Below, piece by piece: positions 1 through 29,915 of a DNA stretch of 41,098 bases. The stretch is from positions 1 through 41,098 of the IMG/VR virus record IMGVR_UViG_3300013181_000002; one strand, written 5' to 3'. The notes under the pieces are model-generated. The model had not been told where the DNA came from and made no database searches. It saw only the letters and a program-made list of their open reading frames with translations. Made by a program: the position numbers and the translations under genes. The first letter of the stretch is position 1. Every line of letters starts with the position of its first letter. The DNA is from a virus.

Positions 1-29
1 CTTCCCCCTAACCCATAAGATTTATTATT

Positions 30-2465
30 TTAAACCCCGTTTTGCTTATAATATTCTGAACCAGAATCATTTATAAATACTGTTTCCCAAGAAAACCCCC
101 CGCCACTATCAAGTGCTTGGAATGCTGCAGCGTTAGCAGTAACGTTAGCGCCACCGCCAGTAATAGTAACTGTATCAAGTAAAGTATATCCTGAACCAGC
201 AGCTAATGAAGCAGTATTAATTACAGCAAAAGCATTTACACCTTCATTAGTAAGAATTTGATTATTTACGAATGTTCCGTTTGCGATATGATGAGCAATA
301 ATATGAGTAGCGTTTACACTTTTAACATTAGCATGAACACCATTACCAGTTAAAGCAGCACCTAAAATAGCAACTAGATTAGCTCCGTTGCCTGTTCCTG
401 TACTTACTGTAACAGTAGGAGTTGATTCGTAATCAGCACCTTTAGTAGTAACTTGTAAAGAAGAAATAGTGCCGTTTGCAAATGTTGTTACGCCACCTAC
501 TGCAGTAGTGCCTGGATTACCGCCAGAAAAAGTAAGAGTGTCAGCATTATCATATCCAGTACCACCATCATGTGCATATACTGATGAAACGAATACATTT
601 GTACGAGAGTGAGCACCTTGAGCCCCCATTATAGCTGTTAAATTAGCCCCTGAGCCTGTTGATGTTGTAATAGTAACTGCAGGCTGGCTTTGATAGTATG
701 CACCTTTTGTATGTCTATAATAATTAATTGTACCGTTTGCAAAAGTTGTAATATTTGCTGTAGCTGTAGTTCCAGGTGAACCTCCAGTAAATACAACTGT
801 ATCACTATTACTATATCCAGTACCACCTGATTCCATATGAATAGAATTTACATATACATTAGCAGAAAAAACAACATCTGTATTAGTAAAAGCACCATTT
901 GAGTGCTGAGGATGTTGAGCATTAGCTACACCTTTTAAATGTATTAAAGTATCAACTGTAATTGAATCTACAAAACCAATATTAGATCCAGAACCGTCTA
1001 CTTTAATATCAGTATAAGGCTGATTTAATTCTTCTATTCCTGTATTATTATCTTCACCAATAATATCTGTAAATAGTGTTAATGTCTCTTGCTCACCTAA
1101 CGAACCAACTTCAAAATCAGCTCCTGTACCTTGGCCAACTGAAGTAATATTTGCAAATGTATTACTGCTTAACCCTTTTACAAACGCTGCTGTAACATCA
1201 GCATAGAATGGCTTACTATTGGCGTGCATACCAATTGTAAATACATTTGATTCTTGATTATATCTTGTTCCAATAAATCTGCCTGTCGGCGTGGCGTTTG
1301 TTACTGTATCTACTTGTACGTTAGTAGCAACATTGCTGACATAGATAAAATCGGCATTTAAATAGCTGCCTGTATGCACAGTTAAATGATATTGGTTAGC
1401 ACTTGTCTCTACAATATATCCAGTTGCAACATTACTGCTATTTAAATCACCGTTAGCATGTAAGTTAGCTCCATAAATTATTACACCATTAGAATAGGTA
1501 TCAAAATCTGAATTAGACCCTGCACTAATAGTTGTAACTTTGTGCATTGGTTGAACGATTGTTTCATTAAAAAAGAAATCTTCTATTTCTGAATTAGAAT
1601 TAATTATGTTGCTGACAGTTAAAGTTGCATTAGATGAAAGAGTATCAGTATATGTGTTTGATACTGTATAACCATAACCACCATTAGCTAATTGAAAGTC
1701 AACTCTACCTGTTGCATCTAAAATAGACGTTACTTTTGCTTGTCCTTGTCTACCACTGCTTGATATGACATCAAAGATATGTCCTACTTCAAAATTTCTA
1801 CCGCCATTTGTAATTGTTACACCTGATAGAGATCCAGATACTTTAGGTGCACCTTCGATTAATCCATCATCAGTTACAAATTCACCTGTTGTAAAAATAC
1901 CTTGAACTTGAGATAAGTACGCGATAGTAATTCTTTTTTGAGCTACTACTTTAGTGACAACACTTTCTACAAACCCTTTAGCACCAGAAACAGAACCAGT
2001 AATTTGCTTACCAATGAATCCTACGTTTCTAGGCGAATCAGTTAGTTCAACATATCTTGGTCTAATCCATTTAGATTCAGATGCAGCTGATATTCTTTTA
2101 GATGGTAAAAAGATTTCTACCTCTTGACCAAACATCAACCTTAGTAATAACTCAATAGATCTAATTGAGCCTTTTGCTTGATAAAGATCACTAATATGTT
2201 TAAGTATAAATCTAGTATCAGCAGTATTTTGTAATCTTGAATCAGCAAAGAATGTATTTTTGAAATATTTTACAAACTCGTCTATAGTTGTATCAATATC
2301 TCTATTATCTTTTAATTGTCTAGCTAATAGTGTAGCTTGACCCGTAGATTCTAACCATTCATAGTATGCTTGAATAAACAGTACTAACCCATCATTTTCT
2401 TCTTTAAAATGTTCGGGGAATTGATCTCTAATAAAATTAGATATTTTATAGTTGCTTGCAAGCAT
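30..2465 (-). CDS. Baseplate wedge/structural protein, gp7/gpI-like N-terminus with beta-repeat arms
   Basis: A large virion protein of 811 residues. The N-terminal 120 residues are helical (YYEWLESTG near 34, then LYQAKGSIRSIELLLRLMFG near 93-112). This resembles the tail-protein-I/gp7-core type of wedge protein that follows gp6-like proteins in contractile tails. The rest is beta-rich and low complexity, with at least two tandem copies of a repeat built on GGTGY-N-DT-F-GG-PGTTA and TTFANGTI (about residues 545-690) and a weaker third copy near the C-terminus (GSGYTLLDTVTITGGG). Its ATG overlaps the gp6 stop by one base, so it is translationally coupled to the wedge operon. T4 gp7 itself is longer and not clearly similar, so the gp7 assignment rests on position and the helical N-terminus. 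The repeats suggest an exposed structural arm. Confidence 0.6.
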   Translation of the reverse strand: MLASNYKISNFIRDQFPEHFKEENDGLVLFIQAYYEWLESTGQATLLARQLKDNRDIDTTIDEFVKYFKNTFFADSRLQNTADTRFILKHISDLYQAKGSIRSIELLLRLMFGQEVEIFLPSKRISAASESKWIRPRYVELTDSPRNVGFIGKQITGSVSGAKGFVESVVTKVVAQKRITIAYLSQVQGIFTTGEFVTDDGLIEGAPKVSGSLSGVTITNGGRNFEVGHIFDVISSSGRQGQAKVTSILDATGRVDFQLANGGYGYTVSNTYTDTLSSNATLTVSNIINSNSEIEDFFFNETIVQPMHKVTTISAGSNSDFDTYSNGVIIYGANLHANGDLNSSNVATGYIVETSANQYHLTVHTGSYLNADFIYVSNVATNVQVDTVTNATPTGRFIGTRYNQESNVFTIGMHANSKPFYADVTAAFVKGLSSNTFANITSVGQGTGADFEVGSLGEQETLTLFTDIIGEDNNTGIEELNQPYTDIKVDGSGSNIGFVDSITVDTLIHLKGVANAQHPQHSNGAFTNTDVVFSANVYVNSIHMESGGTGYSNSDTVVFTGGSPGTTATANITTFANGTINYYRHTKGAYYQSQPAVTITTSTGSGANLTAIMGAQGAHSRTNVFVSSVYAHDGGTGYDNADTLTFSGGNPGTTAVGGVTTFANGTISSLQVTTKGADYESTPTVTVSTGTGNGANLVAILGAALTGNGVHANVKSVNATHIIAHHIANGTFVNNQILTNEGVNAFAVINTASLAAGSGYTLLDTVTITGGGANVTANAAAFQALDSGGGFSWETVFINDSGSEYYKQNGV

Positions 2466-12041: not shown

Positions 12042-12676
12042 CAGTAAAACGATTTCTATTTCAACGTATATTAAAAGAGGGTATTGAAGAAGGCTTCAAA
12101 CCTGGTAAAACTGAGCAATCACGAGAGTGGTTTAGAGAGCAAGCAGGTAAATTAAAAGATATTAGACCAGAACGTCTAGTTAGACGCCCTGGTGCTAAGC
12201 GTAATCAAGTTGCTAAGTTATGGAGACCAGGTGAAATGTATCTTTTTAGATACGAACCAAAAGGTAGAGAAACTCTTAAATATTATGATAGATACCCTCT
12301 TATAATGTTAGTTGATACTTATGAGGATGGATTTATTGGACTAAACTTCCATTATCTGCCTCCTGAGTTTAGAGCTTTGCTTTTAAATAGAATGTATCGC
12401 TATTTAAACAATACTGAGTTTAATGAGCAGACTAGATTATTATTAACTTATGATAAGATTAAGAGGTTAGCAGGTCGACCATATTATAAGCCGTGTGTGA
12501 AGCGTTATATAAATAATCGTGTAATAGGTAGGTTTATTAAAATACACCCATCTGAATGGGATATGGTTTTAATGCTACCTTTAGACAGATTTATGAAACG
12601 TAGAAGAAATACAGTCTGGCAAGACTCAAGAAAAATATACCAAGGACCAAGAGCAGGACAAAGAGATGGCATTTGA
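12038..12676 (+). CDS. Conserved T4-like structural-operon protein, unknown function
   Basis: 212 residues, very basic. The core reads WRPGEMYLFRYEPKGRETL, then YYDRYPLIMLVDTYEDGF and GLNFHYLPPEFRALLLNRM, a pattern I associate with a conserved but uncharacterised protein of marine T4-like phages. The C-terminal region has CVKRYINNRVIGRFIKI. No catalytic motif is evident. It overlaps the preceding gene by 4 bases and the following tube-fold gene by 11 bases, so it is tightly coupled to tail production. Confidence 0.65.
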   Translation: MTVKRFLFQRILKEGIEEGFKPGKTEQSREWFREQAGKLKDIRPERLVRRPGAKRNQVAKLWRPGEMYLFRYEPKGRETLKYYDRYPLIMLVDTYEDGFIGLNFHYLPPEFRALLLNRMYRYLNNTEFNEQTRLLLTYDKIKRLAGRPYYKPCVKRYINNRVIGRFIKIHPSEWDMVLMLPLDRFMKRRRNTVWQDSRKIYQGPRAGQRDGI

Positions 12677-13400
12677 TATTAATGAAATGAAAGGACAAAT
12701 GTCCTCAGCTAGAGGACTAGCTAGAGCTAATTTGTTTGAAGTATCAATGCCGGTAGGCGGTAAAACAATATCTCTTTTAGCTCATGCAGCTCAACTCCCA
12801 GGAATATCTTTTGATGTTATGGAAATTAGAAGACAGGGTTATGGTGTAGCAGAAAGAAGAGCAGGTGTTCCTATATTTCAAAACTTTACAGCGTCTTTTT
12901 TATTAGATAATAAAGGTGAAGTTCTGAAAGTAATCAAAGACTGGGTAGCACAAGTATCGCCAACTGTAAATGTTGAAAATCATGCTCAATATGGACAATC
13001 ATCTCTAGGTGGTATGATGGGTGCACATGGTCAAATTGGCTTCTTTGATGATTATACAAAAGATATCGAAATAACAATGTTTGCACCTGATTCATCTAAA
13101 ATTATTAAGTATAAGATGATTGATGCATATCCTCAAACTGTTTCTGATGTTACTTTAGGTTGGAGACAGAATGATGAAATAGCTGAACTTCAAGTAACGT
13201 TTGTATTCACTCATTGGAATGCAGAAACATATGGCGCACCAAGTGGTGGCGGTGGTGGTGAAGATGGATTCAATCTTTTACAGACACTATCCAAGCTTAA
13301 TTCAGCTGTACAGATTGTTAAAGACTTTAAGAAGCCAAGCAGTATTGGAGATGCGCTAAATATACTGAATAACGGAAAATCAATCCTTGATGCGTTTTAA
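12666..13400 (+). CDS. Tail tube-fold protein (gp19/gp54-like)
   Basis: 244 residues; T4 gp19 is 163. The tube fold is clear: ARANLFEVSMPVGGKTISLL near 19-38, AAQLPGISFDVMEIRRQGYG near 41-60, then DYTKDIEITMF and AYPQTVSDVTLGWRQNDEIA near 157-176 with a final VTFVFTHW strand. A Gly-rich linker (near 193-199) leads to a 45-residue helical extension absent from T4 gp19. The gene directly precedes the tail chaperones and tape measure, the classic tube-chaperone-tape order. It could be the major tube protein or a gp54-type initiator. Confidence 0.75.
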   Translation: MAFDINEMKGQMSSARGLARANLFEVSMPVGGKTISLLAHAAQLPGISFDVMEIRRQGYGVAERRAGVPIFQNFTASFLLDNKGEVLKVIKDWVAQVSPTVNVENHAQYGQSSLGGMMGAHGQIGFFDDYTKDIEITMFAPDSSKIIKYKMIDAYPQTVSDVTLGWRQNDEIAELQVTFVFTHWNAETYGAPSGGGGGEDGFNLLQTLSKLNSAVQIVKDFKKPSSIGDALNILNNGKSILDAF

Positions 13401-13420
13401 TTAAAATAATGGAGTAAATT

Positions 13421-14134
13421 ATGCCTTTGCCTAAAATTGATGTGCCGGTTTTCTATCTTGATTTACCTTACTCAAAGCTAAAAGTTCAATATAGACCCTT
13501 CACCGTAAAAGAAGAGAAAATTCTTTTGTTTGCTCAGCAATCAAAAGATCCAAAACAGATTGCTACTGCTGTTAAACAGGTAGCAGAGAATTGTATTACT
13601 AATGACGTTCGAATAGAAGATATGTTTACATTTGAGGTAGACTATTTCTTCTTAAAATTGCGTTCTGCAAGTGTTAATAACGTCATTAAGTTAAAGTTAA
13701 AAGAAGGAGAAGAAGAATTCTACGATGTAGATGTAGATCTTGAAGAAGTAGAACTTCCTAAACCTTCAAAAGAAAAATTAACCATTCCTCTAAATGAGGA
13801 ATACACAATGTCACTTAACTACCCAAAATATGGCAATGTTGAAGGTGTTGTTAAGTTACTAAATGAAGATAATGCTGCTGAGTTCTTATTTACTATGATG
13901 TCTGAATGCATTGAGTCAATTTATTCAGAAGATGAAATGTTTTTAATGAAGGATTATACAGCAGAAGAGAAGAAAGAGTTTTTAGACTCTTTAACAAGCA
14001 AGAATTTTAAAGACTTGCAACAATTTATTTCAAAAATTCCCGCTCTTGAGCATGAAATAAAATATATTAACGACGAAGGACAAGAGCGGTCCAGAGTGTT
14101 AAGAGGTCTCTTTGATTTTTTTACGTTTGTCTAA
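13421..14134 (+). CDS. Tail assembly chaperone, G-type (gp26/T4_baseplate family)
   Basis: 237 residues in the zero frame. The start KIDVPVFYLDLPYSKLKVQY followed by RPFTVKEEKILLFAQQSKDP is the hallmark of the T4 base-plate gp26-type family, which acts in tail assembly rather than in the final particle. VDYFFLKLRSASVNN near 69-83 is also typical. The reading frame ends at TAA 14132-14134, just inside a hairpin that follows a run of seven T (14116-14122), so some ribosomes should shift by -1 and add the T-type domain. It sits between the tube gene and the tape measure, as lambda G does. Confidence 0.85.
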   Translation: MPLPKIDVPVFYLDLPYSKLKVQYRPFTVKEEKILLFAQQSKDPKQIATAVKQVAENCITNDVRIEDMFTFEVDYFFLKLRSASVNNVIKLKLKEGEEEFYDVDVDLEEVELPKPSKEKLTIPLNEEYTMSLNYPKYGNVEGVVKLLNEDNAAEFLFTMMSECIESIYSEDEMFLMKDYTAEEKKEFLDSLTSKNFKDLQQFISKIPALEHEIKYINDEGQERSRVLRGLFDFFTFV

Positions 14135-14152
14135 GTCATAGCGACTTAGGCA
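14116..14152 (+). other. Programmed -1 ribosomal frameshift signal
   Basis: The zero frame reads GAT TTT TTT ACG, giving the slippery heptamer T-TTT-TTT at 14116-14122. After a 5-nt spacer a hairpin follows: 14128-14137 pairs with 14143-14152 (10 bp, one T-G wobble) around the 5-nt loop ATAGC. The zero-frame stop lies in the 5' arm. The -1 frame is open from 14116 to the TAG at 14305-14307 and encodes a plausible conserved domain. Slippery site, spacer and hairpin all match the standard design. Confidence 0.85.
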
Positions 14153-14307
14153 GTTATTATGAATTGATCTTCGGAATGGTGCAGCACCATAAATACTCTG
14201 TAACAGAAATAGAAAACATGTTCCCGTTTGAGCGTGATCTTTATGTTGAGTTATTGTTAGATTATTTAAAGGAACAGGAGAAAGCTAATAATCAAAGGAG
14301 ATCATAG
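14116..14307 (+). CDS. T-type tail chaperone domain reached by -1 frameshift (gp51-like position)
   Basis: In the -1 frame the ribosome continues as YVCLSHSDLGSYYELIF, then HHKYSVTEIENMFPFERDLY and a final LLLDYLKEQEKANNQ, ending at TAG 14305-14307. The text is protein-like, with the ENM-PFERD-YV pattern I associate with the second tail-chaperone ORF of T4-like phages. The fusion (13421 to 14307) would be about 295 residues. No start codon with a ribosome site opens this ORF alone; an internal ATG at 14176 lacks one. By analogy with lambda G-T, the fusion recruits tube subunits to the tape measure. Confidence 0.75.
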   Translation, partial: FFYVCLSHSDLGSYYELIFGMVQHHKYSVTEIENMFPFERDLYVELLLDYLKEQEKANNQRRS

Positions 14308-29160: not shown

Positions 29161-29236
29161 TGGTGCCGGATGAGAGAATCGAACTCCCGACCTTCTCATT
29201 ACAAGTGAGCTGCTCTACCTGCTGAGCTAATCCGGC
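29161..29236 (-). tRNA. tRNA-Thr (UGU)
   Basis: 76 nt, minus strand. The acceptor GCCGGAT pairs with ATCCGGC, followed by discriminator A and an encoded CCA. The D-arm is GCTC/GAGC, the anticodon loop CTTGTAA (UGU reads ACA/ACN), and the T-arm GGGAG/CTCTC with loop TTCGATT. One mismatch closes the anticodon stem. Confidence 0.95.
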
Positions 29237-29438
29237 GTTAGAAAAATGGGCAGGGCGACAGGAGTAGCCTGTCCCGAGCATCCGATTGAGGCCTTCTGTC
29301 ACCAAAAGGCCGTACCCAAAACTTAAAAAAGGAGGGATGGGTTCAAGTTTTCACTCATGTCGTGATAATAATTGTGGACTTGGTGATGTTTTAGAACCCT
29401 GTCCCTTCCCCGAGTCTTTCGACCCTAAACTCTAATTG
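29237..29438 (-). ncRNA. Candidate structured RNA between tRNA-Leu and tRNA-Thr
   Basis: About 200 nt with no ORF in an otherwise gapless region, richer in G and C than its surroundings. On the minus strand GGCCTT and AAGGCC form a 6-bp hairpin. GGGACAGG pairs with CCTGTC-CC (one bulge). GGGACAGGG near 29395-29407 could instead pair with CCCTGCCC near 29249-29256, closing the whole element. An AUUUUU run lies at its 3' end. T4 encodes stable non-tRNA species among its tRNAs, so a stable RNA is plausible; a long processed spacer is the alternative. Confidence 0.35.
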
Positions 29439-29525
29439 TGGTGCCCCTGGCCGGACTCGAACCAGCATGAGCTAATGCTCGAGAGATTTTAAGTCTCTTG
29501 TGTCTACCAATTTCACCACAGGGGC
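29439..29525 (-). tRNA. tRNA-Leu (UAA)
   Basis: 87 nt, minus strand. The acceptor GCCCCTG pairs with CAGGGGC, then A and encoded CCA. The anticodon stem AGAGA/TCTCT carries loop CTTAAAA (UAA, reads UUA/UUG). A long variable arm (GAGCAT...ATGCT) marks a class II tRNA, and the T-arm is GGCCGGAC-type with TTCGAGT loop. It overlaps the upstream ORF's TAG by one base. Confidence 0.95.
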
Positions 29526-29821
29526 TAATTAAATATACTACCCTCATGATCAGCGTGGCTGCGCTCGAATTGAGATAGTAGTGCTTCCCCTGTAAGTCCT
29601 TTTTTAAGGATATATTTCTTTTTGCCGATGGTTCTTTCAATCTTTCCACTATTGTACTGGATATCAGTTACCATCTTATTCTTTTTCAATGCCCTAGACT
29701 CTGGTGTTTCATACCACATAGAATCTAATGAATGTACATGTAAGTCTTTAACACCTTTAGCCCATTCTTCAGCCATGAGCTTATACTTTTGTTTTTCGAC
29801 TCTACTTTTATACTGTGTCAT
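29525..29821 (-). CDS. Protein between tRNA genes, unknown function
   Basis: 98 residues, basic (SRVEKQKYKLMAEEWAKGVK; IERTIGKKKYILKKGLTGEA). It has good ribosome-site context (TAAAGGAGTAATT) and lies between tRNA-Arg and tRNA-Leu. Its TAG stop shares one base with tRNA-Leu, so tRNA processing would cut its message at the end of the frame. No known domain recognised. Confidence 0.65.
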   Translation of the reverse strand: MTQYKSRVEKQKYKLMAEEWAKGVKDLHVHSLDSMWYETPESRALKKNKMVTDIQYNSGKIERTIGKKKYILKKGLTGEALLSQFERSHADHEGSIFN

Positions 29822-29838
29822 AATTACTCCTTTAGAGT

Positions 29839-29915
29839 TGGCGCGCCCGGTAGGACTCGAACCTACAACCCTCGGCTTAGAAGGCCGATGCTCTATCCTG
29901 TTGAGCTACGGGCGC
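29839..29915 (-). tRNA. tRNA-Arg (UCU)
   Basis: 77 nt, minus strand. The acceptor GCGCCCG pairs with CGGGCGC, then G and encoded CCA. The anticodon stem TCGGC/GCCGA has loop CTTCTAA (UCU, reads AGA/AGG) and the T-arm GTAGG/CCTAC has loop TTCGAGT. AGA is a favoured Arg codon in the surrounding AT-rich genes, so the tRNA fits the phage's own codon use. Confidence 0.96.

Follow-up and report, generated by a model that had tools for sequence, protein, structure and literature searches.

Frameshifting is reportedly conserved in several groups of T4-like phages, and the T4 group is said to use the separate genes 26 and 51. Among the dsDNA phage tail chaperones, lambda G and G-T likewise exist as a short form and a form extended in the −1 frame (Xu, Hendrix and Duda 2004). 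The gp26 and gp51 proteins of T4-like phages have been identified as tail assembly chaperones (TACs) (Vladimirov, Gautam and Davidson, Virology 2022, 566:9–15, as cited in PMC10885494), and the separate genes 26 and 51 of the T4 group are confirmed by the citing paper and by the comparison below. The window analysed here, i.e., a whole virus record of 41,098 bases, carries the same two domains as these T4-like proteins, for which the sequences suggest chaperone functions as TAC-N (gp26) and TAC-NC (gp51). In comparison with the published system, the window represents an uncultivated member, and a long-range RNA stem and a clade with a local hairpin are added. Since such a frameshift has reportedly been published for T4-like phages (Vladimirov 2022), its novelty is low; a conserved RNA stem and a change of its pairing partner were not found described, the 2022 study being represented here by the paper that cites it.

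Gene order and frame overlap in the window

The gp26-like gene has a GGAG ribosome site at 13411–13414 (Table 1). Its product is homologous to T4 gp26, as indicated by the PF12322 and phrog_150 matches and by the alignment of T4 gp26 to the family short form, which ends at the slip point (hhalign 99.6%). The −1 frame domain is homologous to the C-terminal part of T4 gp51; it matches phrog_634 and shows 50–77% identity to IMG/VR relatives, in which it lies in the same −1 frame. T4 gp51 aligns with gp26 (hhalign 97.4%) as well as over the full 295-aa fusion of the zero and −1 frames (98.7%, 234 columns). T4 gp51 thus carries its own TAC-N, which means that the TAC-N gene is duplicated in T4 and that one of the copies is fused to TAC-C. 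The initial annotation was right that T4 keeps gp26 and gp51 as separate genes, but gp51 is a complete TAC-NC rather than the second domain alone.

Table 1. Coordinates of the chaperone locus and its neighbours in the window.
Feature	Position	Strand	Evidence or remark
Tail tube gene	12666–13400	+	phrog_45, E 1.5e-33; directly upstream of the chaperone gene
gp26-like gene, TAC-N short form, 237 aa	13421–14134	+	PF12322 T4_baseplate, E 1.1e-47; phrog_150 (baseplate hub), E 1.7e-53
−1 frame stop TGA	14113–14115	+	Directly 5′ of the slippery site; rules out a −1 start farther upstream
TAC-C (gp51-type), −1 frame continuation	14122–14307	+	phrog_634, E 1.7e-23; ends at TAG 14305–14307
5′ arm, local putative stimulatory hairpin	14127–14137	+	RNA folding; contains the zero-frame stop TAA 14132–14134
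3′ arm, local putative stimulatory hairpin	14143–14153	+	RNA folding
Distal 3′ arm position, TGGTGCAGC	14177–14185	+	Pairing with 14130–14138 broken in the window: 6 of 9 pairs, with wobbles
Membrane-like ORF, 109 aa	14307–14636	+	Separates the chaperone gene from the presumed tape measure gene; AAGGAG 14295–14300
Presumed tape measure protein, 761 aa	14640–16925	+	Position and size only

As in lambda, the chaperone gene follows the tube gene; the tape measure gene that it would precede is here a presumed one. The order tube, chaperone, tape measure proposed from the sequence holds on the tube side, but the 109-aa ORF intervenes on the other. The presumed tape measure protein had no family match in profile searches against protein families and no BLASTP match to phiM12 or T4 gp29. 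The lambda slip sequence is GGGAAAG; the window differs in its T_TTT_TTT slip site, in the selected downstream RNA structure and in the extra ORF. This ORF contains an EF-hand-like DTNGDGKVSKEE motif (PF13202 below the cut-off) and hydrophobic stretches.

The AlphaFold2 model of TAC-N (pLDDT 84) matches gp26-type proteins of many phages in a viral structure library. The HK97 tail assembly chaperone gp13 (PDB 2ob9) is among its top PDB matches, at non-significant scores (prob 0.41–0.57, E 1.4–1.6, 59–62 columns), and only the helical part aligns. A sequence search of the PDB returned chance matches only.

The heptamer T_TTT_TTT occupies 14116–14122 (+ strand) in the zero-frame register, and the codons across it read GAT TTT TTT ACG TTT GTC TAA. 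An open −1 frame extends from 14116 to 14304, leaving a frame overlap of just 19 nt (14116–14134). Within this overlap the heptamer is the sole slip candidate, and it has the X_XXY_YYZ form and register of programmed −1 ribosomal frameshifting. Its placement exceeds chance: it falls in register within a 19-nt overlap, T7 runs are rarer than expected in the window (8 observed versus 23 expected, both strands), and it is kept in relatives. The first −1 frame start codons are TTG 14164 and ATG 14182, with no ATG, GTG or TTG before them; both are within the conserved domain and have no ribosome site. Since the −1 frame has no such codon ahead of the conserved domain, the fusion needs a shift, and in the window the whole domain cannot be initiated independently. 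The slippery sequence claimed in the initial annotation is thus borne out in register, position and uniqueness, as is the open −1 frame with a second chaperone domain, through its phrog_634 match.

Slip site among relatives

Eighty IMG/VR loci were found with the short protein. T_TTT_TTT stands in the same register in 77 of them and in 52 of the 53 non-redundant ones; the remaining three of the 80 (L046, L061, and L063) have G_TTT_TTT in its place, with all else conserved. All 79 relatives with enough sequence carry the second domain in the −1 frame. T_TTT_TTC or T_TTT_TTT was also present in all ten named phages, which lie outside the T4 subfamily: P-SSM2, Bellamy, Mosig, phiM12, OLIVR6, Marzo, KVP40, R11Z, phiAS5, and LPCS28, of which KVP40, phiAS5, and LPCS28 are within Straboviridae. 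The alignment of relatives that had been proposed as a check therefore finds the heptamer conserved. Codon usage alone (TTT for 69% of Phe, GAT for 71% of Asp) predicts a T followed by TTT in about half of the cases. Only the 80 protein-found loci and the ten named phages enter these counts, because the DNA pattern used to retrieve loci L098–L216 already prescribes T7 and part of the left arm described below.

RNA pairing downstream of the slip

For comparison with the observed folds, synonymous recodings of the −1 frame were made that left the protein and the zero-frame stop unchanged. Across 156 loci, the 72 nt after the slip gave a mean z of −2.96 against these recodings, with 81% of loci below −2, and folding was weakly stronger in the first 45 nt (z −0.87). 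A re-run on 60 loci yielded −3.24 after the slip versus −0.07 to −0.47 in control windows on either side, and −2.79 was obtained for the 53 loci whose retrieval involved no DNA pattern. Family-wide, the downstream structure is under selection beyond coding, as in programmed −1 frameshifting.

The strong 72-nt fold is caused by a stem between positions +14..22 (GCUGAGYCA) and +61..69 (UGGCUCAGC), which is gapless across groups. All nine pairs are formed in 90 of the 156 loci, and the mean pairing exceeds that of all 2000 arm swaps. Compensatory types include GCUGUGCCA/UGGCACAGC and GUUGAGCCA/UGGCUCAAC. With relatedness ignored, the third base of Ala tracks the left arm (Fisher p 4e-5) and the choice between Leu UUG and CUG tracks that between Gln CAA and CAG (p 1e-4). 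Among 68 diverse sequences, both sides have changed in 6 of 11 pairs, and the covariation score is above all 500 shuffles and all slid controls; a tree-based covariation test on independent pairs had too few of these and was underpowered. RNAalifold gave no single consensus on the mixed set of 68, probably because local-stem and distal-stem members are combined in it, and Rfam contains no family for the distal-stem element. The distal stem takes an alternative form in three loci (L153, L172, and L205), where a GGGCUAAG left arm is paired in a shifted register with CUUAGCCC or CUUGGCCC.

In the window, RNA folding places a local stem of 11 bp with a 5-nt loop 4 nt after the heptamer. This is the helix first described as a 10-bp hairpin behind a 5-nt spacer; both figures change once the outer U-G pair is counted, and the zero-frame stop does fall inside its 5′ arm, as had been claimed. 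Its z is −2.12 against dinucleotide shuffles and −1.93 (p 0.04) against synonymous recoding, and taken alone it is only moderately unusual. The window's own hairpin goes only modestly beyond coding constraint, the yardstick proposed for checking; the local form is particular to the window's clade, and most relatives use the longer-range stem. This clade (the window, L213, L114, L001, L002, L014, L015, and L080) clusters on a tree of the upstream protein with support 98. Within it, the local stem has 9–11 of 11 pairs, and six of its eight members have a broken distal stem. The local-stem members have a mean z of −2.31 over 45 nt; L001 and L002, with a weak local stem, are able to form both.

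The simplest reading of these patterns would be that the same left arm changed partner in the window's clade. On balance, we slightly favor a joint reading in which the marine T4-like frameshift is stimulated by an undescribed stem of 9–11 bp with compensatory changes, its left arm starting 14 nt after the slip start and its right arm lying about 40 nt on, in AQHH codons. The left arm of the window's clade would then have switched to a nearby right arm, so that stimulators were exchanged and the use of the frameshift was kept. Through the selected RNA stem, the control of the ratio between the two chaperones becomes accessible to testing.

Mechanism and alternative readings

Register, missing start codon, conserved heptamer, and RNA selection are accounted for together only by a −1 frameshift that links gp26 (TAC-N) to a gp51-type TAC-C. 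It is very probable, judged from the sequence, that this shift yields both TAC-N and the 295-aa TAC-NC in the window. Most ribosomes would stop at TAA 14132 and release TAC-N (gp26, 237 aa). We infer that a smaller share would be slowed down at the RNA hairpin (14127–14153) and slip when both Phe tRNAs on U_UUU_UUU re-pair one base back, continuing in the −1 frame to TAC-NC (gp26 plus the gp51 domain). By analogy with lambda G and GT, TAC-N and TAC-NC may cover the tape measure protein and bring in subunits of the tail tube. The textbook −1 frameshift signal proposed for this T4-like tail-chaperone gene is hence supported as an interpretation by register, domains, conservation, and RNA selection.

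GenBank annotators usually draw the second domain as a separate gp51 gene, with its own start or read by termination-reinitiation, and most records carry gp51 as a separate CDS. Homologues with their own starts, which the initial annotation had named as evidence against a frameshift, do occur: a start codon precedes the conserved motif in the −1 frame in 41 of 156 non-redundant loci, often overlapping the stop, as in KVP40 and phiM12 (TAATG and TGATG), where re-initiation would be allowed in principle. The other 115 loci have no ATG, GTG, or TTG there. In the window, the first −1 starts lie inside the domain and have no ribosome site, although the flanking genes have good ones, and a separate gene leaves the conserved heptamer and RNA pairing unexplained. 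We consider this reading very unlikely. Even less credit is due to a homopolymer sequencing or assembly error, or a decayed gene, that makes one gene look split. T7 homopolymers are generally error-prone, but T6C and T7 versions alike show the same −1 relation across hundreds of independent records, which refutes this candidate, and the conservation of both chaperone domains speaks against decay.

A different question is whether slippage occurs on T7 alone, the frameshift being real and the local hairpin arising by chance from the protein motif LSHxDLG and playing no part. The modest z of the window's hairpin against synonymous recoding and the weak local stems of L001 and L002 are in line with this. 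It appears improbable, if less so than a separate gene, given the average 45-nt z of the local-stem clade members and the strong selection on pairing at the same place in relatives.

The frameshift therefore stays the preferred reading, and with it an uncultivated marine member and many unannotated ones join the frameshifting tail chaperones of T4-like phages. The older shared design suggested in the initial annotation is supported but not new, as the gp26/gp51 TACs had already been identified (PMC10885494). Our results support the view that frameshifting is the wider state and that the split genes 26 and 51 of T4 arose by duplication and fusion. In GenBank, 530 phage records span at least 80% of the fusion; among the best-matching ones listed, the match is split in two. 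In loci that have no start codon, drawing gp51 as a gene of its own is probably a mistake.

A related arrangement was observed in Ackermannviridae and Vibrio relatives (L091–L093, L096, and L222–L236), where a gp26-like gene is followed by an overlapping TAC-C-like ORF in the −1 frame. This ORF is clear in Kuttervirus and Miltonvirus, weak in two Vibrio phages, and unannotated in allotria. These relatives have no X_XXY_YYZ heptamer; their zero frame reads NTT TTY NNN stop, where a P-site slip on U_UUY is possible. Elsewhere in the window, three tRNA genes are located on the minus strand at 29164–29915.
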